From contig NC_017956.1 in NCBI RefSeq assembly GCF_000264455.2, forward strand, positions 1,781,501 through 1,845,500: a DNA stretch of 64,000 bases, read 5' to 3'. Every line of letters starts with the position of its first letter. Position 1 is the first letter of the stretch. A program made the translations under genes and the position numbers. The DNA comes from Tistrella mobilis KA081020-065 (GTDB lineage: Bacteria; Pseudomonadota; Alphaproteobacteria; Tistrellales; Tistrellaceae). Shown piece by piece: positions 41,552 through 53,425 of the stretch. The notes below the pieces were generated by a model, which saw nothing but the letters and a program-made list of their open reading frames with translations, was not told the origin of the DNA and did not search any database.

Positions 41552-42433
41552 TCAGCCCACGCTCTGGCTGATCCGGCGTGCGGCATCGAGCAATGCCGCC
41601 AGATTTGCGGCCGCACGGCTGCCTGCGATATGCGGGGTGAGGCCGGCGAGGGAAACGGCCGCGATCACCCGGCCGTCGCGATCGCGCACCGGTGCCGCCA
41701 TGGCCGCCAGGCCTTCGACCACGTCATCGACGGCGATGACGTGCCCCTGCGTGCGGATCCGGCCGAGTTCCTCCCGGAAGGTATCGGCATCGGTGATGCT
41801 GTGCGGGGTAAGCCGGCTCAATCCCTGGCCGATCGCGCGCTCGATCTCTGCCAATGGCTGGAAGGCGAGCAGCAGCTTGGGGGCACCGCCGACATTGGCG
41901 GGCAGGGCACCGCCCACTGCCCACCAGCGCACCTGAATCGATCGGTCATGGTGGAACTTCTCAAGGCAAAGCGCTGAATGTTCGCGGTAAATTGACAGAA
42001 AGGTCGTCCCGTCGATCTCGCGCGCCAGATCGGTGAGGATCGGGGCCGCAGCCTTGCGCAGCCCCAGATTGTCGGGTACGGCGCTGGACAGCTCGATCAT
42101 CGCCAGGCTGAGGGCGTAGCGATGGGTCTCGCGGTCCTGGACCACGAGACCCGCTTCGATCAGTGTCACCAGCAGCCGCCGCGTCGTGGCCTTGTCGAGG
42201 CCGGTCCGGGCGACGACTTCGGTCAGGGTCGCCCAGGGTTCGACGACGGTGAAGGCGCGCAGCACCTGGACCGCGCGCAGCACGGCACGCACCGTGGTCG
42301 GGCCGCTGTCGCTCCCTACGGTCTCGCCGCCTGCGGCTGTCGTCTCGGGCTCGTCACCCATCCGTCCGTTCGCCTTCATGCCTGCCACTTTCACCCATAC
42401 CGGCCGCTCGGCCGGGATCGCGTCTGCCGTCAT
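41552..42433 (-). CDS. IclR-family transcriptional regulator
   Basis: This is a 293-residue regulator. A winged helix-turn-helix (AVLRAVQVLRAF, ATLTEVVARTGLDKATTRRLLVTLIEAGLV; about residues 48-95) precedes an IclR ligand domain (REIDGTTFLSIYREHSALCL to RDRDGRVIAAVSLAGL). The ATG at 42433 overlaps the TGA of the lyase gene (ATGA), so it is the last gene of the catabolic operon and probably senses its substrate. The first 45 residues look flexible. A perfect 17-base palindrome upstream of the operon (50055-50071) is a candidate binding site. Confidence 0.9.
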   Translation of the reverse strand: MTADAIPAERPVWVKVAGMKANGRMGDEPETTAAGGETVGSDSGPTTVRAVLRAVQVLRAFTVVEPWATLTEVVARTGLDKATTRRLLVTLIEAGLVVQDRETHRYALSLAMIELSSAVPDNLGLRKAAAPILTDLAREIDGTTFLSIYREHSALCLEKFHHDRSIQVRWWAVGGALPANVGGAPKLLLAFQPLAEIERAIGQGLSRLTPHSITDADTFREELGRIRTQGHVIAVDDVVEGLAAMAAPVRDRDGRVIAAVSLAGLTPHIAGSRAAANLAALLDAARRISQSVG

Positions 42434-43293
42434 CTGCCGCGGATATACTTATCCTGCAACTCTTCAATGCGCGAGTAGCCGATCAGGCTCTTGAACAGCT
42501 GCGGCTGGGTGCGGGCGCGGGGCAGGTTGCGGGTGCTGCGATCGCGCGCCAGCACGGACAGATTGTCGACCAGCGCCTGGGTCGCCGTCATCAGCGGCAC
42601 CAGCGGGAAGGTGGCAAAGCCTGCGACATCGGCAATTTCCTCGGGCGACAGTTCATCTTCCAGCCAGCCCAGGATCTGCAGCGACAGCGGCTTGCCCACC
42701 GCATGCCGGAGCGCGACGAGATCGGTTTTCGACTTCACGCAGCGTGAAATCGGCTGGATGAGGTCGGCGCCGGCCTCGGCATAGGCCTGGCCGCGGCGGA
42801 TGCACTCTTCCATGGTCTCGGCATCGGTGCGGGCGACGATGATGGTGTCCGGATCGCGGCGGGCATCGACGGCCGCCCGGATCTTGGCCGTGGCTTCGTC
42901 GATGGGCAGGATCTCAAGCGCGCCAGCGACCACCGGGCAGCGCTTGGGCACGACCTGGTCCTCGAAGATCATCGCGGCGGCACCGGCCTTCTCGAAGGCG
43001 CGCACGGTGCGCACGATGTTGACCACATTGCCGTAGCCGGTATCGGCATCGGCAACCAGTGGCATGTCGATCACGTCGCCGATAGCGCGGACCACACCCA
43101 CATTCTCGGTCATGGTGTAAAGCTCGACATCCGGCTCTCCCAGCAGGCTGGCCGAGACGCCGAAGCCGGTGGTGAAGACGGCGTCGAAGCCGGCATCGGC
43201 GACCAGCCGGGCCGACAACACGTCATAGGCACCGGCCATCCAGACGGTCTGGCCGGCCTCGATCCGGTCGCGGAGCATGCGGGCATGGGACAT
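42430..43293 (-). CDS. PEP mutase/isocitrate lyase superfamily lyase
   Basis: This 287-residue TIM-barrel enzyme has the superfamily core: AGAYDVLSARL, DADTGYGNVVN (82-92; Mg ligands), FEDQVVPKRCPVV (110-122, with the catalytic-loop K-R-C) and IVARTDA. Relatives include 2-methylisocitrate lyase, oxaloacetate decarboxylase and 2,3-dimethylmalate lyase. It cleaves or decarboxylates a 2-hydroxy- or 2-oxo-diacid, but sequence alone does not fix which. Its operon also has an aconitase-family dehydratase pair and a Liv-type transporter, which favours a dimethylmalate-lyase-like role. The ATG at 43293 was chosen for the family N-terminus. Confidence 0.86.
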   Translation of the reverse strand: MSHARMLRDRIEAGQTVWMAGAYDVLSARLVADAGFDAVFTTGFGVSASLLGEPDVELYTMTENVGVVRAIGDVIDMPLVADADTGYGNVVNIVRTVRAFEKAGAAAMIFEDQVVPKRCPVVAGALEILPIDEATAKIRAAVDARRDPDTIIVARTDAETMEECIRRGQAYAEAGADLIQPISRCVKSKTDLVALRHAVGKPLSLQILGWLEDELSPEEIADVAGFATFPLVPLMTATQALVDNLSVLARDRSTRNLPRARTQPQLFKSLIGYSRIEELQDKYIRGR

Positions 43294-43340
43294 CGATTGG
43301 ATTCTCTTTCGTGGAAAGGAGCGCATCTGTCGTGCGGCGC

Positions 43341-43369
43341 GGCCGGCCGGGTGCGCCACCCGGCCGGCC
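43341..43369 (-). repeat. Very strong hairpin between the binding-protein and lyase genes
   Basis: A perfect 13-base stem (GGCCGGCCGGGTG with CACCCGGCCGGCC) with a three-base loop lies 11 bases after the binding-protein stop. It has no T run. It likely protects the mRNA end of the highly needed binding protein or partly terminates, lowering the two downstream genes. Confidence 0.75.
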
Positions 43370-43379
43370 TCAGGCACGG

Positions 43380-44612
43380 TTACTTGCCACCGCGAACCGG
43401 GTCGATCACGGCGCCGAGTGAGCGGAAGCCGCCATCCTTGAGCTGCATCAGCACCACGCCGGTCTGGCCGCGGCGCGAATAGGGATCGTCCGACAGCGGC
43501 GCGAAGGTGATCGCGGGGCCGATCTTCTGATCGAAGCCCTTCATGCCTTCGAGCGCGCCGACCAGCTTTTCGCGGGTGGGGTCGTCGCCCGCCTGCTTCA
43601 GGGCTTCGGCGAAAGTCGCCGCCGCCGAATAGCCCATCAGCGCCAGGCTGGACGGGGTCGATTTCGGGAAGCGCTTGCCGTATTCCGCGACAAAGGCCTT
43701 GATCGCCGGGTTCTCGCCATCGACCGGGTCGTAATAGGAGGCGACATAGAGGGTCTTGCCGGCACCGCCGCCCAGCAGCTCGACGAATTTGGGATCATTC
43801 AGGCCACCCGCGCCGAACACGGTCGGGTTCCAGCCCAGCTTCTCGGCATTCTTGAAGAAGATCGCCGCCTGCTGGCCCAGGGCGTAGAGGATGACCACAT
43901 CCGGCTCGGCCGCCTTCAGCCGCGCCACCTGGCTGGTGAGATCGGTGGCCAGGCGCTCGAAATTCTGGACCTCGACCAGCTTCATGCCATGAGTGGCGAG
44001 CTGCTTCTCGGTATACTCCTGCGCCGGTTTACCCCAGGCGTCGTTCTGAACCAGCATCGCGATCTTTCGGGCGCCCAACTCGTTCACGGCATAGTCGACA
44101 TAGGCCGGGGCCTCGGTCGACTGCGGCGAGGGCAGGGCGAAGAGCAGCTTCCGCGGCGGGTTGGTCACCGCATCCGAAATGCTGAGCGCGCCCACGATCG
44201 GCACGCCCTTCGGTTCCAGATATTCGTAGGCCGCGAGTACCGTAGCAGTGCCGACCGGGCCGACCAGGGCCAGCACGTCGTCGCGCTCCACCAGCAGCTT
44301 GGCGTTGGCGACGGCCTTTGGCGGCTTGAATTCATCGTCATAGGAGACGAGTTCGATCTTGCGGCCGTTGACGCCGCCCTGATCGTTCAGCATGCCGAAA
44401 TAGGTTTCCATACCCTCCTGCACGGCCTTGCCCATATAGGCGAGCGTGCCCGAGAGGGCGAGGGTGCTGCCGACCTTGACGGCGTCGTCGGAAACGCCGG
44501 GATCTGCGGCGAAAGCCGGGTGCGACAGCCCCGCCGGCAGGGCGGATGCAAGGGCGATGGCGGCGGCAGCCGTCAGCAGACGGCGGCGCAGCCGGTCGAA
44601 GCGCAGGGTCAT
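43380..44612 (-). CDS. Liv-type ABC transporter periplasmic binding protein
   Basis: This is a 410-residue periplasmic receptor (type I fold, LivK/UrtA superfamily). The signal peptide spans residues 1-35 with a cleavage region SHPAFAADP. The core has VKVGSTLALSGTLAYMGKAVQEGMETYF in pieces, VNGRKIELVSYDDEF, VLALVGPVGTATV and the later VFGAGGLNDPKFVELLGG. GGAGGAGAG precedes the ATG at 44612. It is the fifth transporter gene of the operon and is followed by a strong hairpin. Such receptors bind amino acids, amides or aromatic and dicarboxylic acids; the operon suggests a branched diacid. Confidence 0.92.
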   Translation of the reverse strand: MTLRFDRLRRRLLTAAAAIALASALPAGLSHPAFAADPGVSDDAVKVGSTLALSGTLAYMGKAVQEGMETYFGMLNDQGGVNGRKIELVSYDDEFKPPKAVANAKLLVERDDVLALVGPVGTATVLAAYEYLEPKGVPIVGALSISDAVTNPPRKLLFALPSPQSTEAPAYVDYAVNELGARKIAMLVQNDAWGKPAQEYTEKQLATHGMKLVEVQNFERLATDLTSQVARLKAAEPDVVILYALGQQAAIFFKNAEKLGWNPTVFGAGGLNDPKFVELLGGGAGKTLYVASYYDPVDGENPAIKAFVAEYGKRFPKSTPSSLALMGYSAAATFAEALKQAGDDPTREKLVGALEGMKGFDQKIGPAITFAPLSDDPYSRRGQTGVVLMQLKDGGFRSLGAVIDPVRGGK

Positions 44613-44700
44613 CCGGTCTCTCCTCCCTGTGGTGCCGGGGATCTCTTGATGCGGGCGGATCCGCCGGCGGTGCGGATGCGAAGTCTTCAAGGGGGGCGGA

Positions 44701-45420
44701 TCAGCCGCCCAGATAGGCACGGCGCAGGGCATCATCGACGAGCAGCGCTTCGGCCGGGCCCTGGACCGCCAGACTGCCGGTTTCCAGCACATAGCCGCGG
44801 TCGGCGAGGTCGAGCGCCAGTTCGGCATCCTGTTCGACGATCAGCATGGTGACGCCCTCATCGCGGGCGATGTCGGCGAGCGCGTCGAAGATCACGGCCT
44901 TGATCACCGGCGCGACACCCATCGAGGGTTCGTCGAGCATCAGCAGGCGGGGCTGCGACATCAGCCCGCGGGCGACGGCGAGCATCTGTTGCTCGCCACC
45001 CGACAGCGTGCCGGCCTGCTGGTCCATGCGCTCGGCAAGCCGGGGGAAATAGGTGCAGGCGCGATCGATGCCCTGCGCCGTGGCGGCACGGTCGCGGGTC
45101 CAGCCGCCGACGATCAGGTTCTCGCGCACGCTCAATCCCGGAAACACCATCCGGCCCTGGGGAACATGCGAGATGCCGCGGGCGACCAGCCCTTCGGCCG
45201 GCTTTCCTGCAATGTCGTCGCCGTCGAAGACGATCCGGCCGTCGACCGGCTTCAGCAGCCCCGACAGGCAGCGCAGCAGGGTGGTCTTGCCGGCGCCGTT
45301 GGCCCCCAGCACGGCCACAACCTCGCCCGGCATGAGCGACAGATCGATCCCGTGCAGGGCACGGATCGCCCCATAGGCGGCGACGAGGCCCGAGACCTCC
45401 AGAATGGGCGTATCAGGCAT
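44701..45420 (-). CDS. livF: Liv-type ABC transporter ATPase (LivF)
   Basis: This 239-residue ATPase has Walker A GANGAGKT, the ABC signature LSGGEQQML and Walker B RLLMLDEPS. GMGVAPVI-type sequence (SMGVAPVIKAVIFDAL) is characteristic of LivF. The ATG at 45420 overlaps the end of livG by eight bases. It energises import with LivG. The gene symbol reflects family, not proven leucine transport. Confidence 0.93.
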   Translation of the reverse strand: MPDTPILEVSGLVAAYGAIRALHGIDLSLMPGEVVAVLGANGAGKTTLLRCLSGLLKPVDGRIVFDGDDIAGKPAEGLVARGISHVPQGRMVFPGLSVRENLIVGGWTRDRAATAQGIDRACTYFPRLAERMDQQAGTLSGGEQQMLAVARGLMSQPRLLMLDEPSMGVAPVIKAVIFDALADIARDEGVTMLIVEQDAELALDLADRGYVLETGSLAVQGPAEALLVDDALRRAYLGG

Positions 45421-46252
45421 GGGCCATCTCCTTCGTCGGGCCCAGGCGGCGCCGGTCGCGCCGGGGGATGGCATCCGCATCGCGATTGCCCAGATAGGCG
45501 GCAATCACGGCTTCGTGGCGCTCGATCTCGGGCGGGGTGCCGGCGGCAAGGAAGCGGCCCTGCTCCATGACCGTGATCCGGTCCGACACCCGCATCACCA
45601 GCGACATGTTGTGCTCGATCAGCAGGATGGTCAGGCCGTGACGATCGCGCAGCCGTAGCAGCAGGTCGCCGAGGGTGCGCGCTTCGGTCTGGTTCATGCC
45701 AGCGGCCGGTTCGTCCAGCAGCAGCAGTCTGGGATCCAGTGCCAGAGCGCGGGCGAGTTCGGCGAGCTTCTGACGGCCATAGGGGAGATCCGCGACGATG
45801 GCGTCGGCATCGCCGCCAAGCCCCACCTCGTCGATCAGACCAAGGGCATGGTCGCGTTCGCGGATCGCTTCGCGCCGTTCCGACGGCAGGCGCAGCATGG
45901 CCGGCAGAATGCCCGCCGACATCGCCCGGTCGCGGCCGATCAGCACGTTGTCGAGCACGCTCAGTTCCGGGAACAGCTCAAGGTTCTGGAAGGTGCGCGC
46001 AATGCCGAGCCGGGCGACCCGGTGGGGCTTGAGGCCCAGAAGCTCCTGGCCGCCGAAGCGGATGCTGCCGCGCGCGGCGTCGTAGAACCGGCTGACACAG
46101 TTGAGCACGGTGGTCTTGCCGGCACCGTTGGGGCCGATCAGGGCATGGACGTCCCCCTGCCCGACGGTCACATCGATGCCGTCCACGGCCTTCAGGCCGC
46201 CGAAAGAGATGGCGAGGTCGCGAATGGTCAGCAGTTCGGGTGCAGCGGTCAC
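45413..46252 (-). CDS. livG: Liv-type ABC transporter ATPase (LivG)
   Basis: This 279-residue ATPase has Walker A GPNGAGKTT, the LivG-specific insert around RTFQNLELFPELSVLDNVLIG, a degenerate signature (LPYGRQKLAELARAL) and Walker B LLLLDEPAAGMNQTE. The GTG at 46252 overlaps the livM TGA (GTGA), which decides the start against the longer upstream frame. It pairs with LivF at the membrane. Confidence 0.93.
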   Translation of the reverse strand: MTAAPELLTIRDLAISFGGLKAVDGIDVTVGQGDVHALIGPNGAGKTTVLNCVSRFYDAARGSIRFGGQELLGLKPHRVARLGIARTFQNLELFPELSVLDNVLIGRDRAMSAGILPAMLRLPSERREAIRERDHALGLIDEVGLGGDADAIVADLPYGRQKLAELARALALDPRLLLLDEPAAGMNQTEARTLGDLLLRLRDRHGLTILLIEHNMSLVMRVSDRITVMEQGRFLAAGTPPEIERHEAVIAAYLGNRDADAIPRRDRRRLGPTKEMAHA

Positions 46253-47217
46253 GGGCGATGCCTCCGGAACAGCGTGTGGCCAAGGCCCGAAAGGCCGCCC
46301 GGCAGGAACATCAGCGACAGGATCATGGCGAGGCCATAGACCGACCGCTGGACCTGATCGAGCCCCAGATAGGTGAGGCATTGCGGCACCGCGATCACGA
46401 AGGCGGCGCCCAGGATCGAGCCGCGGATCGAGCCCAGCCCACCCACGATCACCATGGACACGAAGCTGATCGAGACCATCAGATCGAAGGTGGACGGGTC
46501 GATGAAGCGGATCAGCGGGCCGTAGAGCGCACCGGCGACGCCGCAATAGAAGGAGGACAGCGCGAAGGCGACGATCTTGAGGCGGGCGGTGTCGAGCCCC
46601 ATGATCCGGGCGGCGGATTCGCTGCCCTTCACCGCCTTGAGCGCACGCCCCCATCGGCTGGCCCCGAAATTGGCCCCCATCCACATCAGCACCGCGACCA
46701 CCGCAAGCAGCATCCAGTAGGTGCCGGCGCCACCGAGTTCCATGCCGAAGAGATCCGGCGCGGCGACACCCATGCCGTTCTCGCCGCCGGTCAGTTCGCC
46801 GCCCGATTTGGCGATCTCGGCGAAGATCATCACGAAGCCGAGCGTCGCCATGGCAAGAAAGACCTCTTCCAGGCGCAGCAGCGGGATGGCGAGCAGCAGG
46901 CCGACGACCATGGCGACAAGGCCTGCGGCAAGCGCCGCGACCAGCAGAGTGACACCGTATTCCCCGGTCAGGATGGCGGCGCCATAGGCGCCGATGCCGA
47001 AGAACACGGCCCCTGCCAGCGAGATGAGATTGGTGTAGCCGGTGAGCAGATTGGTGCCGAAGGCCGCCAGTACATAGACCAGCACCAGGCTGGCGATGAA
47101 CAGGAAATAGCCGCCGAGGATGAAGGGCAGGGCCAGCAGGATGGCGACGCCGAGGCCCGTGAGGGCCAGACGGCCGGGGCGGCTGCGCGCGGCGGGCAGA
47201 TCGAGGCTCATGGTCAT
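46249..47217 (-). CDS. livM: Liv-type ABC transporter permease (LivM)
   Basis: This 322-residue inner-membrane permease has about eight to ten hydrophobic helices and the LivM motifs GYTNLISLAGAVFFGIGAYGAA and the coupling-loop region ALKAVKGSESAARIMGLDTARLK. GGAGGGAGA lies five bases before the ATG at 47217. It forms the membrane channel with LivH. Confidence 0.93.
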   Translation of the reverse strand: MTMSLDLPAARSRPGRLALTGLGVAILLALPFILGGYFLFIASLVLVYVLAAFGTNLLTGYTNLISLAGAVFFGIGAYGAAILTGEYGVTLLVAALAAGLVAMVVGLLLAIPLLRLEEVFLAMATLGFVMIFAEIAKSGGELTGGENGMGVAAPDLFGMELGGAGTYWMLLAVVAVLMWMGANFGASRWGRALKAVKGSESAARIMGLDTARLKIVAFALSSFYCGVAGALYGPLIRFIDPSTFDLMVSISFVSMVIVGGLGSIRGSILGAAFVIAVPQCLTYLGLDQVQRSVYGLAMILSLMFLPGGLSGLGHTLFRRHRP

Positions 47218-47232
47218 AGGTCTCCCTCCGCC

Positions 47233-48099
47233 TCAGATCTTCTTGGTCGCGTGGCGGCCGAGCAGGCCGGCGGGCTTGACGATCAGGATCGCGAGCATGA
47301 CCAGGAAGGGCATGAATTCCTTGAACGCCGAGTCGACATAAGCGCCGGTGAGGTTCGCTGTCAGCCCGACGATGGCGCCGCCGACGAGCGCGCCCGGCAT
47401 CGAGGTCAACCCGCCCAGAACCGCGGCGGCAAAGGCGAAGTGCAGGGCCTGCTGCATCATGGTGAAATGAAGGAAGGTCAGCGGTGCGATCAGCAGGCCG
47501 GCCACAGCACCCACCATGTAGGAAAGCATCCAGGCGAGGCCGTGCATGCGGGCCACTGGCACGCCCTGCAGCCGGGCCGCGGTTTCGTTGCTCATGGCCG
47601 CCTGCATGGCGATACCGGTCCGGGCATAGCGGAAGAAGGCGAAGAGCGCCGCCGACAGCACCAGACAGGTCGCGATGATGCCGAGATCGGCGAGACTGAC
47701 CGCCACGCCGCCGATCAGGATCGGCGCCTGCGAGAACGGCCCGGCCATGTCGTGGGGATCCTTGCCCCAGATCCAGACCGCGACGTCGCCCAGGATGAGA
47801 TACAGGCCGAGGGTGGCGATCGCATTGGCGAGCAGTGGCTTGCCGATGAAACGGCCGATCAGCACCACTTCGATCGCAAGGCCGATCAGGGCGGCGGCGG
47901 CGATGGTCAGGATGGCCGCCAGCCAGTAGGGGACGCCGGCTTCGAGCAGGGTCCAGGCGATGAAGGCCGAGATCATGACGCCTTCGCCATGGGCGAAATT
48001 GATCACCCCCGTCGCCCGATAGACCAGCACGATGCCGAGCGCGACGAGACCGTAGATGGCACCGAGCGCGATGCCGCTGACCGCCATTTGCGCAAGCAT
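47233..48099 (-). CDS. livH: Liv-type ABC transporter permease (LivH)
   Basis: This 288-residue permease has the LivH N-terminus LAQMAVSGIALGAIYGLVALGIVLVYRATGVINFAHG, seen in pieces, and the loop MSNETAARLQGVPVARMHGLAW. The ATG at 48099 has GGAGG seven bases upstream and begins five bases after the leuD-like stop. It is translated together with the dehydratase genes, which ties transport to catabolism. Confidence 0.93.
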   Translation of the reverse strand: MLAQMAVSGIALGAIYGLVALGIVLVYRATGVINFAHGEGVMISAFIAWTLLEAGVPYWLAAILTIAAAALIGLAIEVVLIGRFIGKPLLANAIATLGLYLILGDVAVWIWGKDPHDMAGPFSQAPILIGGVAVSLADLGIIATCLVLSAALFAFFRYARTGIAMQAAMSNETAARLQGVPVARMHGLAWMLSYMVGAVAGLLIAPLTFLHFTMMQQALHFAFAAAVLGGLTSMPGALVGGAIVGLTANLTGAYVDSAFKEFMPFLVMLAILIVKPAGLLGRHATKKI

Positions 48100-48103
48100 G
48101 GGA

Positions 48104-48634
48104 TCAGCCTCCGGTGCGGGCGCGATCGGCATCGACCGCGCGCTTGAGATAGGGCACCAGTCCGCCCGCTTCGAGCATCGCCCGGTCGGCGACCGACAGC
48201 GGTTCGAACGGCTTTTCCCAGCCCCTGGTCAGGTTGCGGACGCAGCCTGCCTGCCAGTCGACCTCCAGGCTGTCGAAGCGGTCGGTGGCGGCCGCGACGC
48301 CGGGGCAGGGGATCAGCGGAAAGCCCATGCTGATTTCACCCCGCCAGAAGCCGGGCGAGAAACCGTCGGCGATCACGCCCGCGACACCCAGATGGCGCAT
48401 GGCGCGCATCGCCGGATAATGCGGATGGCCGTAGCCGAAATTGTCGGCGCCGACCAGCAGGTCGCCGGGCCGGACCTTCTGCGGAAAGCCGGGCTCGTCA
48501 TCCTTCATCACCAGCGCGGCCAGCGCGTCGATGTCGGTGATCTTGATGTTCTCGACACCGATGATGCGGTCGATGTCGTAGTCGTCCTCGCGGAACACCC
48601 AGACGGCGCGACCGCGGAGATCGGGCAGCGACAT
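48104..48634 (-). CDS. Aconitase-family dehydratase small subunit (LeuD/DmdB-like)
   Basis: This 176-residue swivel-domain subunit is homologous to LeuD. It begins LRGRAVWVFREDDYDIDRIIG and contains VGADNFGYGHPHYPAMRAMRHLGVAGVIADGF. In LeuD and aconitases the corresponding loop reads GSSREH, with a catalytic Ser and a carboxylate-binding Arg. Here it reads GHPHYP (69-74), so both residues are replaced, and substrate or mechanism should differ. It follows the large subunit by about 58 bases and precedes livH. Leucine biosynthesis is unlikely given the operon. The family is clear; the substrate is inferred to be a branched diacid. Confidence 0.82.
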   Translation of the reverse strand: MSLPDLRGRAVWVFREDDYDIDRIIGVENIKITDIDALAALVMKDDEPGFPQKVRPGDLLVGADNFGYGHPHYPAMRAMRHLGVAGVIADGFSPGFWRGEISMGFPLIPCPGVAAATDRFDSLEVDWQAGCVRNLTRGWEKPFEPLSVADRAMLEAGGLVPYLKRAVDADRARTGG

Positions 48635-48692
48635 GGGCTGCACTCCTGGATGGGGAAAGATGGCGGCAACGGGCCGACGACAGGCGCTGCCG

Positions 48693-49949
48693 TCAGAGAT
48701 AGCGGCGGGGATCTGCGATCCGGCCTTCGATGGCGGCTGCGGCCACGGCTGCGGCATTGCACAGGAAGATTTCGGACTTCGGATGCCCCATGCGGCCAGG
48801 CACGTTGAGCGTGCCGGTAGAGACCGCCCGCTGGCCCTCGGCCATGGTCGCGATCCGGCCGAAGCAATAGTCGCAGGACGGGCTGCTGACGAAGGCGCCC
48901 GCCTCGACCAGAGTGGTGATCAAGCCCTCCGCCGCGGCCCGGGCCATCAGCGCCCGGCTGGTCGGCACGACATGAAGCGCGAAGCCGGGGGCGATCTGAC
49001 GGCCTTTCAGCACCTGGGCCGCGGCGCGCAGATCCTCGATCCGGCCGCTGGCGCAGCTGCCGAGATAGCCGGCCTGGACCTCGGTGCCGATCACCTCCGA
49101 GAGATCGCGGGTATTGGAGGGCGTGGGCGGCAGGACGACCACCGGCTCCAGCGCCGACAGGTCGACGGTGTGGCGGGCGGCATAGACGGCATCGGTGTCG
49201 CTGAATACCGGGTCGAGGGCGAGCTTCGGCCGGTCTCCCAGCCAGTCCGCGGTTTTGTCGTCGGGCATCATGACAGCGGTGGTGGCGCCGGTGAACATCG
49301 CAAGGCCGCAGATCGTCTGCCGGCTTTCGATGCTCATCTCCGTAACCGCCGGCCCGCCCAGCTCCAGCACTTTGAAGGCGGCGAATTTGGGGCCGAGCGC
49401 CCGGACCAGATGGTGGAAGACATCCCGCGCCATCACCCCCGGCCGGAGAGAGCCCGTCAGATTGATCCGCACCGTCTCTGGCACCCGGATCGAGATGGCG
49501 GGGCGGACGAAGGCCTCAAGAAGGTTGCGGCGCAGCCCGATCGCCAGCGAACCGAAGGCGCCGAGCTGGCTGACATGACCGTCGAAATGGACCGCGAAGC
49601 CGCCGGGCACCGCATAGCCGACCTCGGCCGAGACCTGATGACCGATGCCATGGCGCTCGTAAAGGGCTGCGCCCTGTTCGGCGCACCAGGCCCGGGTCAT
49701 CTGGTGAAGCTCTTCTTCCTTCGGCGTGGCCGTCGGAACCATGTGGTCGATGAAGATGGCAAACCGGGATGGATCATCGACACGCTCTATACCGAAATCA
49801 TCCCGCATCTGACGGAAGATCACATCGGTATAACCGGGAAAATCATACGCGATAACGAAATCGGGGCGAGCCTCGATTTCGTCTCCGGCCCGAACATGAT
49901 CGCGACCCGAGGTCCGCGCGAGAACCTTCTCCGCGAGCGTGTAGCCCAT
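48693..49949 (-). CDS. Aconitase-family dehydratase large subunit (LeuC/DmdA-like)
   Basis: This 418-residue Fe-S hydro-lyase subunit has the three cluster cysteines at expected places: Cys299 (GYLGSCASGRIEDL) and Cys359/Cys362 (SPSCDYCFGR). It also has FDGHVSQLGAFGSLAIG and LRPGVMARDVFHHLVRALG. Its length suits the short LeuC/DmdA type. The ATG at 49949 follows GGGAGGA. It heads the operon; a promoter with perfect TTGACA lies at 50014-50042. With the small subunit it should add or remove water from a methylated C4-C6 diacid, but the exact compound is unproven. Confidence 0.87.
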   Translation of the reverse strand: MGYTLAEKVLARTSGRDHVRAGDEIEARPDFVIAYDFPGYTDVIFRQMRDDFGIERVDDPSRFAIFIDHMVPTATPKEEELHQMTRAWCAEQGAALYERHGIGHQVSAEVGYAVPGGFAVHFDGHVSQLGAFGSLAIGLRRNLLEAFVRPAISIRVPETVRINLTGSLRPGVMARDVFHHLVRALGPKFAAFKVLELGGPAVTEMSIESRQTICGLAMFTGATTAVMMPDDKTADWLGDRPKLALDPVFSDTDAVYAARHTVDLSALEPVVVLPPTPSNTRDLSEVIGTEVQAGYLGSCASGRIEDLRAAAQVLKGRQIAPGFALHVVPTSRALMARAAAEGLITTLVEAGAFVSSPSCDYCFGRIATMAEGQRAVSTGTLNVPGRMGHPKSEIFLCNAAAVAAAAIEGRIADPRRYL

Positions 49950-50042: not shown

Positions 50043-50054
50043 TATGCAAATCAT

Positions 50055-50071
50055 GGTTCATTGAATGAACC
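50055..50071. promoter_or_regulatory. 17-base palindromic operator candidate
   Basis: GGTTCATT-G-AATGAACC is a perfect palindrome 12 bases upstream of the -35 of the catabolic operon. The IclR regulator encoded by that operon is the obvious candidate ligand; it could also affect the N-ATPase promoter. Confidence 0.6.
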
Positions 50072-50114
50072 AAATGAGGGTCGGTGTATGAACCGCGGCC
50101 GAATCCTGAATTGC

Positions 50115-50184: not shown

Positions 50185-52070
<1,886 letters not shown>

Positions 52071-52086
52071 CCGGGGAGGCGACGCC

Positions 52087-52377
52087 ATGACCCCGCCGCG
52101 CGACCGCCGTCAGGACCGGCGGATGGAGCAGGCCGCCGATCGCCAGGCCGCCCGCGAGGCGGCGAAACGCAAGGATCATGAGCCCGGGATCGGTCACCGG
52201 TTGGGGCAGATCGGTGTGCTCGGCTGGATGATCGTGACGCCGATGTTGCTCGGCCTGTTCCTCGGCCGCTGGTTCGACCGGCTGGCCGGCACCGGCATCA
52301 CCTTCGCTGCCGCCCTGCTGATGGCGGGCGTGGCACTCGGTTTCTGGTCGGCCTGGAAATGGATGCATCGCCCATGA
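52087..52377 (+). CDS. atpQ: N-ATPase membrane protein AtpQ (AtpI-like)
   Basis: This 96-residue protein has a charged N-terminus and two membrane helices (IGVLGWMIVTPMLLGLFLG and ITFAAALLMAGVALGFWSAWKWM) with the AtpI-like motif RWFDRLAGTG between them. In N-ATPase operons AtpQ replaces AtpI, probably as an assembly factor of the membrane sector. GGGGAGG precedes the ATG, and its stop overlaps atpR. Confidence 0.87.
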   Translation: MTPPRDRRQDRRMEQAADRQAAREAAKRKDHEPGIGHRLGQIGVLGWMIVTPMLLGLFLGRWFDRLAGTGITFAAALLMAGVALGFWSAWKWMHRP

Positions 52378-52694
52378 ACGCCCTCTCGACCCTGACGGTG
52401 GATCCGACGGCGCTGGCGCTGGCATTTGTCGCGGGGCTTGCCGCCGGGGCCGGGTTTTTTCTGGTGCTGCGACGGAACACGGATCTGTTTGCCGGCGGCC
52501 GCATCGGTCTCGCCATAGCGATGCAGGTGGCGCGCTTCGCCGTTCTGGTGCCGGTTCTGGTGCTGGCGGCCCGCCAGGGGGCGGGACCACTGCTGGCGGC
52601 AGCCTTGGGTGTTCTGATCGCGCGGCGGGTGGTGGTCGGCCGGGTACGCCGTCGATCCGCCGCCATGCTGCCCGACGGGGGGCGGTCGTCGTGA
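52374..52694 (+). CDS. atpR: N-ATPase-specific membrane protein AtpR
   Basis: This 106-residue protein has about three membrane helices (ALALAFVAGLAAGAGFFLVL; IGLAIAMQVARFAVLVPVLVLAA; GPLLAAALGVLIARRVVV) and Arg residues near the membrane (QVARF, IARRV). AtpR is found only in N-ATPase operons and is the best marker for them; its function is not established. The ATG at 52374 overlaps the atpQ stop, and its own stop overlaps the atpB GTG. Confidence 0.87.
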   Translation: MNALSTLTVDPTALALAFVAGLAAGAGFFLVLRRNTDLFAGGRIGLAIAMQVARFAVLVPVLVLAARQGAGPLLAAALGVLIARRVVVGRVRRRSAAMLPDGGRSS

Positions 52695-53425
52695 TCGGAT
52701 CACCGCTCGAAACCCCGATCGCCTTTCATCTGGGGCCGGTGCCGATCGCAACGCCGGTGCTGGTGACCTGGGGCATCATGATCCTGCTTGCCGGCGGTTC
52801 CTGGATGCTGACCCGGCGGCTGGAGTTGATGCCGGGCCGGGTGCAGGCCGTGCTGGAACTGGTGGTCGAGGCCATCGACGGCCAGATCCGCGAGACCATG
52901 CGGGTGGAGCCTGCGCGGTTTCGCGCCCTGATCGGCACGCTGCTGGTGTTCATCCTGACCGCCAACTGGTCCTCGCTGGTGCCGGGTATCGAACCGCCGA
53001 CCGCCCATATCGAAACCGACGCGGCACTGGCCGCCATCGTCGCCGTCTCGGTGATCGTCTTCGGCATCCAGGCGCAGGGGCTCGGCGGCTATCTGAAGAC
53101 CTTTGCCGAGCCCAGCCTGGTGATGGTGCCGCTCAACCTCGTCGAGCAGATCACCCGGACCTTCTCTCTGGTCATCCGCCTGTTCGGCAATGTGATGAGC
53201 GGCGTGTTCGTGATCGGCATCGTGCTGTCGCTGGCGGGGCTTCTGGTGCCCATCCCGCTGATGGCGCTCGACCTGCTGACCGGGGCGGTGCAGGCCTACA
53301 TCTTCGCCGTGCTCGCCATGGTGTTCATCGCCTCCGGGCTGGAAGGCGAGGGCGGCTCACCGCCCGCGTCCGGCCATACGTCCACATCTTCTTCCTCCCC
53401 TACCTCCTCCGGGACTGAGTCATGA
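52691..53425 (+). CDS. atpB: N-ATPase subunit a
   Basis: This 244-residue stator channel subunit has about five membrane helices. The essential Arg that faces the c-ring is Arg163 in SLVIRLFGNVMSG, preceded by PLNLVEQITRTF, and ALDLLTGAVQAYIFAVLAMVFIASGL forms the last helix pair. The C-terminus is a Ser/Thr-rich tail of about 20 residues. The GTG start overlaps the atpR stop. Confidence 0.94.
   Translation: MIGSPLETPIAFHLGPVPIATPVLVTWGIMILLAGGSWMLTRRLELMPGRVQAVLELVVEAIDGQIRETMRVEPARFRALIGTLLVFILTANWSSLVPGIEPPTAHIETDAALAAIVAVSVIVFGIQAQGLGGYLKTFAEPSLVMVPLNLVEQITRTFSLVIRLFGNVMSGVFVIGIVLSLAGLLVPIPLMALDLLTGAVQAYIFAVLAMVFIASGLEGEGGSPPASGHTSTSSSSPTSSGTES

Follow-up and report, generated by a model that had tools for sequence, protein, structure and literature searches.

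The stretch of DNA analysed here, called the window below, comprises 64,000 nucleotides of the genome of Tistrella mobilis KA081020-065 (contig NC_017956.1, positions 1,781,501 to 1,845,500 of the forward strand). Its minus strand carries nine genes between 41552 and 49949, for an aconitase-family enzyme of two subunits (AcnL and AcnS, together AcnLS), a Liv-type importer, a lyase of the PEP mutase/isocitrate lyase (PEPM/ICL) superfamily and an IclR-family regulator (Table 1). They are read in the order AcnL, AcnS, LivH, LivM, LivG, LivF, Peripla_BP_6 receptor, lyase and IclR, with 58, 16, 15, -4, -8, 88, 101 and -4 bases between successive genes. A preliminary description had presented them as one overlapping operon for uptake and cleavage of a dimethylmalate-like diacid. 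All genes are indeed present on the same strand and probably make up one transcription unit, but with gaps from -8 to 101 bases they overlap only in part. The statement that the operon holds no methylcitrate synthase or leucine gene was correct, and PrpB-PrpC and LeuCD-LeuB lie elsewhere in the genome. Among the matches listed (for the two ATPases the best 25 families) none of the nine proteins reached a curated NCBIfam cut-off, and AcnS had no Pfam match.

Table 1. Genes, motifs and candidate operator of the operon, in coordinates of the window
Feature	Position	Strand	Remarks
Palindrome, 19 bp, perfect	50054..50072	.	105-123 bases upstream of AcnL start; core GTTCATTCAATGAAC at 50056-50070
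AcnL, aconitase-family large subunit, 418 aa	48693..49949	-	Pfam Aconitase PF00330 222 bits, cut-off 28.7
AcnL motifs	48693..49949	-	three cluster Cys kept; DGH for DSH, TLNVxGR for NRNFxGR, SCASGR for SCTNGR
AcnS, small subunit, 176 aa	48104..48634	-	NCBIfam LeuD/DmdB-type (TIGR02087, LEUD_arch) 99.9 bits, cut-off 108.95
AcnS loop	48104..48634	-	NFGYGHPHYP where NFGxGSSREH is expected
LivH-type permease	47233..48087	-	longest open reading frame begins at 48132
LivM-type permease	46249..47217	-	
LivG-type ATPase	45413..46252	-	
LivF-type ATPase	44701..45420	-	
Periplasmic substrate-binding protein (receptor)	43380..44612	-	Peripla_BP_6 243.5 bits
PEP-mutase/ICL superfamily lyase	42430..43278	-	PEP_mutase/ICL 146.8 bits; EDQVVPKRCPV, Cys of the K[KR]C loop kept
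IclR-family regulator	41552..42433	-	

Named genomes were scanned for relatives; 258 turned up, of which the best 80 were used with flanks of up to 10 kb. The 81 loci referred to below are the window, a second copy in the same genome (L021) and 79 of these 80, L095 being left out for want of an AcnL gene call; a gene was counted as present when it lay within ten gene calls of AcnL and belonged to the corresponding blastp cluster at 38% identity. By their titles the relatives are alpha- and betaproteobacteria, unplaced metagenome-assembled genomes (MAGs) and one gammaproteobacterial MAG. AcnS was found in 79/81 loci, the lyase in 75/81 and both together in 75/81, and AcnL, AcnS and lyase are directly consecutive in 59/81. 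The transporter near them is of Liv type b in 22 loci, Liv type c in 16, the Liv type of the window in 14, TctC in 11 and TRAP in 8; 4 loci are mixed and 6 have none of these, the Dpp-type second copy being counted with the latter. IclR regulators of type a are found in 34/81 loci and of type b in 26/81. AcnL, AcnS and lyase are a conserved core around which the transporter is exchanged, which bears out the earlier view of a self-contained catabolic module that has a transporter of its own. The pairwise distances of large subunit, small subunit and lyase correlate at 0.70-0.80, a level attained in 0/300 permutations and to which shared ancestry contributes.

The first eight genes recur in exactly the order of the window in 15/81 loci, the window included (others are from Variovorax, Pseudacidovorax and Xenophilus), and the operon is therefore more than a chance arrangement. 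This bears on the idea that the importer takes up branched-chain amino acids and has no connection with the enzymes encoded around it, an idea that agrees with the Liv/HAAT family of receptor and permeases and with the generic Liv-type receptors that are the nearest solved structures to the receptor. However, no Liv equivalog cut-off is reached, the importer genes stand between AcnS and the lyase in the same order in those 15 loci, and TctC, TRAP, Dpp or MFS genes occupy the same place elsewhere, so that we regard this idea as very improbable. A substrate was also sought in the likeness of the receptor and given up, since those structures point to no specific ligand. Near the cassettes of L072, L075 and L094 there is in addition a gene for a single-chain aconitase-like protein, which in L072 has 661 aa and canonical GSSRE and which we take to be YbhJ-like.

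AcnL and AcnS are similar in sequence to isopropylmalate isomerase (IPMI). With isopropylmalate/citramalate isomerase and homoaconitase (structures 4kp1, 3vba, 4kp2, 2pkp and 1v7l) they share the domain split, the fold, the three cluster Cys and the DH and HQ motifs. The AlphaFold model of AcnS has a pLDDT (predicted local distance difference test) of 94.6, and the nearest structure is an IPMI small subunit; against 3vba and 2pkp the TM (template modelling) score is 0.80-0.86 by query length, with identities of up to 37%. The three cluster-ligand Cys are kept in 71/71 large subunits of a mixed alignment and in 81/81 of the window family. Unlike these enzymes, AcnLS lacks the Ser-Ser-Arg loop, the DSH Ser and the NRNF Arg. 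AcnS aligns without gaps across the loop of IPMI and homoaconitase small subunits, and where they have GSSR it reads GHPH, as do 79/79 small subunits of the family. DGH and GTLNxxGR are found in 81/81 large subunits, and the DSH Ser and NRNF Arg (presumably S166 and R447 in mAcn numbering) are thus replaced; the IPMI structure from M. jannaschii has DSH and NRNFxGR at these positions. The motifs replaced in AcnL and AcnS are held by the IPMI and homoaconitase structures, and the mutants S642A and R644Q in PDB titles are consistent with the Ser-Ser-Arg of aconitase. In passages of PMC8184944, Ser642 of aconitase is described as the general base and Cys358, Cys421 and Cys424 as the cluster ligands. 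It may be that a His of the GHPH loop takes over the catalytic role of the Ser.

The lyase resembles PrpB and the PEPM/ICL superfamily in its fold and in the EDQ...KRC loop with its Cys, and PKRC is present in 75/75 lyases; C123S mutants of PrpB have served for ligand complexes, according to PDB titles. Acidic residues are kept at places that we take to be those of the metal site. It differs from PrpB in that the CGH motif is replaced, by CP in 74/75 and by CM in 1/75, and in that the stretches matching FPEA and ANITEF of PrpB, which presumably bind carboxylates, read QPIS and SLQILGW; against the prpB model it scores 171.3 bits, below the cut-off of 354.4. The AlphaFold model (pLDDT 91.6) has methylisocitrate lyases as nearest solved structures, at 30-32% identity, and structures of PEP mutase and phosphonopyruvate hydrolase score nearly as high against it. 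In a profile comparison with structures the E values were 5.8e-54 for methylisocitrate lyase, 2.1e-50 for PEP mutase and 3.5e-48 for petal death protein, and 1.5e-42 for a structure named 2,3-dimethylmalate lyase, which was outscored by phosphonopyruvate hydrolase as well.

The anaerobic breakdown of nicotinate uses a dimethylmaleate hydratase, DmdA/DmdB, and a 2,3-dimethylmalate lyase, and the operon had been likened to this system. The analogy is sound as regards the enzyme families, a two-subunit aconitase-family hydratase and a PEPM/ICL lyase here paired in one operon, and the expected overall chemistry from a diacid to a 2-oxo acid and a carboxylate. A true Dmd-type module, in which dimethylmaleate (or citraconate/mesaconate) would be hydrated and 2,3-dimethylmalate (or citramalate) split into pyruvate and propionate (or acetate), would also agree with the complete importer and with the Cys and acidic residues of the lyase. 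Membership in the Dmd families did not follow, our comparison being made through family models and a PDB structure and not with authentic DmdA, DmdB and Dml sequences. The scores of AcnS (99.9 vs 108.95 bits) and AcnL (326.9 vs 410.15) lie under the cut-offs of the LeuD/DmdB family (TIGR02087) and of TIGR02086, the IPMI/homoaconitase family to which, as we take it, DmdA belongs. The family as a whole has other residues in place of the Ser-Ser-Arg loop and the NRNF Arg, GHPH, TLN and KRCP and the operon's own importer and IclR set it apart from the Dmd system, and cassettes with canonical motifs form separate clades (see below). The specific assignment to dimethylmaleate and dimethylmalate is thus not supported; the lyase profile, too, matches the structures of methylisocitrate lyase, PEP mutase and petal death protein better than that of 2,3-dimethylmalate lyase, and we find a Dmd-type module quite unlikely. 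The name 2,3-dimethylmalate lyase is, in passages of PMC9804861 and PMC8471276, given to a gene of the methylcitrate pathway.

In three annotated relatives that were examined the small subunit is publicly annotated as 3-isopropylmalate dehydratase, which would fit a redundant isopropylmalate isomerase and methylisocitrate lyase with a housekeeping role. Unlike LeuCD, however, AcnLS lies below the leuC, LEU2 and IPMI_arch cut-offs (for AcnL 155.2 vs 560.25, 289.4 vs 610.65 and 326.9 vs 410.15 bits) and is not linked to leu genes. The host genome (6.5 Mb, 5 contigs) has a LeuC elsewhere (774.3 bits vs 560.25) together with genes that are LeuD- and LeuB-like by eye, and a PrpB (411.6 vs 354.4) that adjoins a 2-methylcitrate synthase (658 vs 550). 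As these true copies exist, as the active-site motifs differ and as transporters and IclR accompany the cassette, a housekeeping identity was rejected; it is largely contradicted already and scarcely credible.

Eight PEP_mutase-family matches were found in the host genome, those of the window and of the second cassette included. The second cassette has a large subunit that is 63% identical, with genes for small subunit, lyase and IclR; these lie behind a gene that appears MarR-like by eye and a dipeptide (Dpp)-type ATP-binding cassette (ABC) importer (SBP_bac_5, oligo_HPY), which stands in place of any Liv genes. Other loci of interest were seen in the same genome. One (C4, L022:6906-14810) is again a hydratase-lyase module. 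It combines a KRCGH lyase with a LeuC-like and LeuD-like pair showing canonical GSSRE, a gene that most resembles 4-oxalomesaconate tautomerase/PrpF without reaching either cut-off and, by eye, GntR-like and TRAP-like genes. On C2 (L028:1-11644), in what looks like a further organic-acid module, a Liv-like importer accompanies a KRCGH lyase that matches the prpB model below its cut-off, a flavocytochrome-c/TcuA-like FAD protein and two proteins that are MmgE/PrpD-like by eye, one of which was searched and had no NCBIfam match. On C3 (L025:6834-7691) a phosphonopyruvate-hydrolase/PEP-mutase-like gene scoring below the cut-offs has neighbours that by eye are aminotransferase-like and ABC-transporter-like.

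Other genes near the core in the 81 loci are an MBL protein (29), an FAD oxidase (27), a tandem alpha/beta hydrolase (17) and a GlcD-like oxidase (9). The MBL protein and the FAD oxidase, which are often in the same operon as the core, are nearest to organophosphate-hydrolase/lactonase structures and to D-lactate dehydrogenase, respectively, and for this reason the core may in some hosts be fed from a lactone or hydroxy acid. AcnLS could then act on another kind of substrate altogether, such as a lactone-derived or monocarboxylate hydroxy acid, with the lyase acting on its product and the two accessory enzymes supplying the substrate in some relatives. The family-wide replacement of Ser-Ser-Arg agrees with this, and aconitase X (AcnX) shows that the fold can accept other substrates, as stated in part of PMC8184944. 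On the other hand AcnL and AcnS remain IPMI-like in sequence, both accessory genes are absent from the stretches examined of all 15 loci with the gene order of the window, and the host genome has only distant matches to them (29-34% identity), which were rejected as own-genome copies. We therefore consider this alternative unlikely.

Aconitase X, comprising cis-3-hydroxyproline and mevalonate-5-phosphate dehydratases, is comparable to AcnLS in being a superfamily branch whose active site deviates from the conserved one (parts of PMC8184944). Bacterial AcnX is described in the same passages as retaining a Ser that is the proposed base, as having a cluster site of another kind and as showing no significant similarity in sequence to the other members. 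AcnL, unlike AcnX, keeps the usual IPMI-type cluster Cys and an IPMI-like sequence; no AcnX model is among the matches listed, all Pfam and NCBIfam matches with E up to 0.001 being of the Aconitase/IPMI type.

AcnL-like proteins were also detected by a profile search (E <=1e-60) in 55 of 385 alphaproteobacterial genomes. In the set of genomes searched, the order of the host is represented by three genomes of one genus, presumably Tistrella. From the 55, 53 stretches (L152-L204) were taken, near-copies from the host's own genus and weaker matches being left out. Of the 53 scored rows, 29 are of type A (GSSREQA or close variants, KRCGH) and 10 of type F (variants of GSSRP, mostly with KRCGH), and 4 are of the window type. 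Type A includes L166, assigned by its large subunit as its stretch contains no small subunit, and L189, which is nevertheless apart on the tree. The remaining rows belong to aconitase-like families with non-canonical loops: GNPHIQG in 3 (L157, L159 and L185), PKMNG in 3 (GPKMNG; L192, L194 and L199), GS[IV]HSHP with KKCGA in 2 (GSxHSHP; L164 and L188) and HHNHPQ with ETCP in 2 (L193 and L200). No lyase was found in the GNPHIQG and PKMNG stretches. Cassettes of types A and F (e.g. L152 and L197) have the same three genes side by side as the window but differ in the GSSRE or GSSRP loop, the Arg in ARNF, NRNF or TRNF and the KRCGH lyase.

The motif table and trees were made from 15 family loci (the window, L021 and 13 others), L152-L204 and own-genome outgroups from L022-L029, leaving out L072_1 (a duplicate call) and L191 (partial) and, for the lyase tree only, L190_1. 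In the large-subunit and lyase trees, which were built by a quick method with long branches flagged for L189, L022, L024, L025, L027, L190 and L196, the window type forms a single clade on a starred branch. The canonical-motif cassettes of the same class (types A and F) fall in clades separate from it in the large-subunit tree. The hydratase-lyase pair appears to be a general plan in Alphaproteobacteria, of which the loci fetched show five or more motif types, and the canonical-motif cassettes would be the better candidates for a Dmd-like activity.

Several observations weigh against the proposal, set out below, of a hydro-lyase and C-C lyase acting on a common route. Motifs of AcnS and lyase are both present in 52/76 rows, as 32 canonical pairs, 20 altered pairs and no mixed pair; this coupled change was rejected as proof of a shared metabolite, and does not count as independent evidence, because it represents a single change on the large-subunit tree. 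With the Ser base lost, AcnLS could possibly catalyse no isomerisation at all. Six of the 81 loci have no lyase gene call. In L085 and L088 the lyase motif is found in a frame missed by the gene caller, and in L092 and L112 the sequence stops within 0.8 kb of AcnL, but in L129 and L131 no lyase motif was found in the stretches examined. Finally, the window copy is without the lactonase-like MBL and FAD-oxidase genes that are common near the core elsewhere.

Upstream of AcnL, the palindrome listed in Table 1 is probably to be regarded as a candidate IclR-type operator. Enumeration of promoter patterns gave a top pattern present in 10 loci, compared with <=3 in 20 shuffles. The form xxTCA-N5-TGAxx occurs in 17/81 promoters of the family; 200 block shuffles gave 0.225 on average and never more than 2. 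This test is partly circular because the form was picked after the enumeration. A different palindrome, CCACA-N-TGTGG, is present in 9/81 loci. Divergent from the operon, at 50218-53422 on the plus strand, lies a second-type F1F0 ATPase operon, whose beta subunit has the alternate-type model TIGR03305 as best match, below its cut-off, and is above the cut-off of atpD; epsilon, a putative F0F1-ATPase subunit (TIGR02230) and F0 subunit a are also encoded there.

The AcnS family is rare and sharply bounded in the Pseudomonadota sample, where 4 of 398 genomes had a match at E < 1e-80 and the next match was at 3.6e-27. Among 72,556 plasmid records the large subunit was found in 8 (E <=1e-100). One of these is a Rhodococcus opacus megaplasmid with IclR, lyase, AcnL, AcnS and an MFS transporter in a tight group; the AcnL encoded there has 47.7% identity, and the motifs of the group are DGH, GSCASGR, VLNISGR, GYGHPHYP and PKSCP. 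Since it is present in several classes and on plasmids, the cassette probably moves between genomes. Reading a substrate from the plasmid context was tried and rejected, as annotations are generic and neighbours vary by host, and the Rhodococcus record carries no annotation.

From the observed gene content, conservation, transporter exchange and residue replacements, we infer the reactions of the route, their order and products, and the function of the operator. The general chemistry, a hydro-lyase followed by a C-C lyase, would follow from the enzyme families. The Liv-type importer would take up an external organic acid, and the two-subunit iron-sulfur enzyme AcnLS, by family a hydro-lyase, would dehydrate and/or rehydrate it to a 2-hydroxy-3-carboxy acid. 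The PEPM/ICL lyase would then split the C2-C3 bond to give a 2-oxo acid (pyruvate or glyoxylate) and a carboxylic acid, with IclR controlling the operon through the palindrome upstream of AcnL. That the operon is such a portable, IclR-controlled cassette is the reading we prefer, with moderate confidence.

As for the substrate, the replacement of the base and of carboxylate-binding residues, with Leu for Arg, suggests a less charged compound. The absence of the Ser-Ser-Arg loop and the NRNF Arg from AcnLS, and of CGH from the lyase, makes it probable that the substrate is a C4 hydroxy-diacid of the substituted malate/maleate type, less polar than the citrate-type acids. It is probably neither isopropylmalate nor methylisocitrate, and very likely not 2,3-dimethylmalate. 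The active sites differ from those of characterised relatives, and the cassette is therefore likely to feed on a compound not yet assigned. Benzyl- or alkyl-malates, hydroxycitrate lactone and paraconic-type lactones came to mind as guesses and were not adopted.

Full-text literature searches, whose coverage did not extend to most subscription papers, returned no paper recognisable as treating this cassette. We see about even chances that it represents an undescribed branch of the aconitase superfamily, in which the cluster is kept, Ser-Ser-Arg has become His-Pro-His, the partner PEPM/ICL lyase is altered and the transporters are exchangeable, and which would have its own substrate and pathway in alpha- and betaproteobacteria, one gammaproteobacterial MAG and a Rhodococcus megaplasmid. 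For the aconitase superfamily outside aconitase X, a figure legend in PMC8184944 gives 20 active-site residues as completely conserved, and the accompanying passages of text give >15 of 20 sites as identical. Names assigned automatically, 3-isopropylmalate dehydratase among them, cannot be relied on for the window family and its sister cassettes. A family that keeps the cluster but loses the catalytic Ser and pocket residues, and nearly always stands beside a C-C lyase, would offer testable new chemistry and probably a new carbon source.

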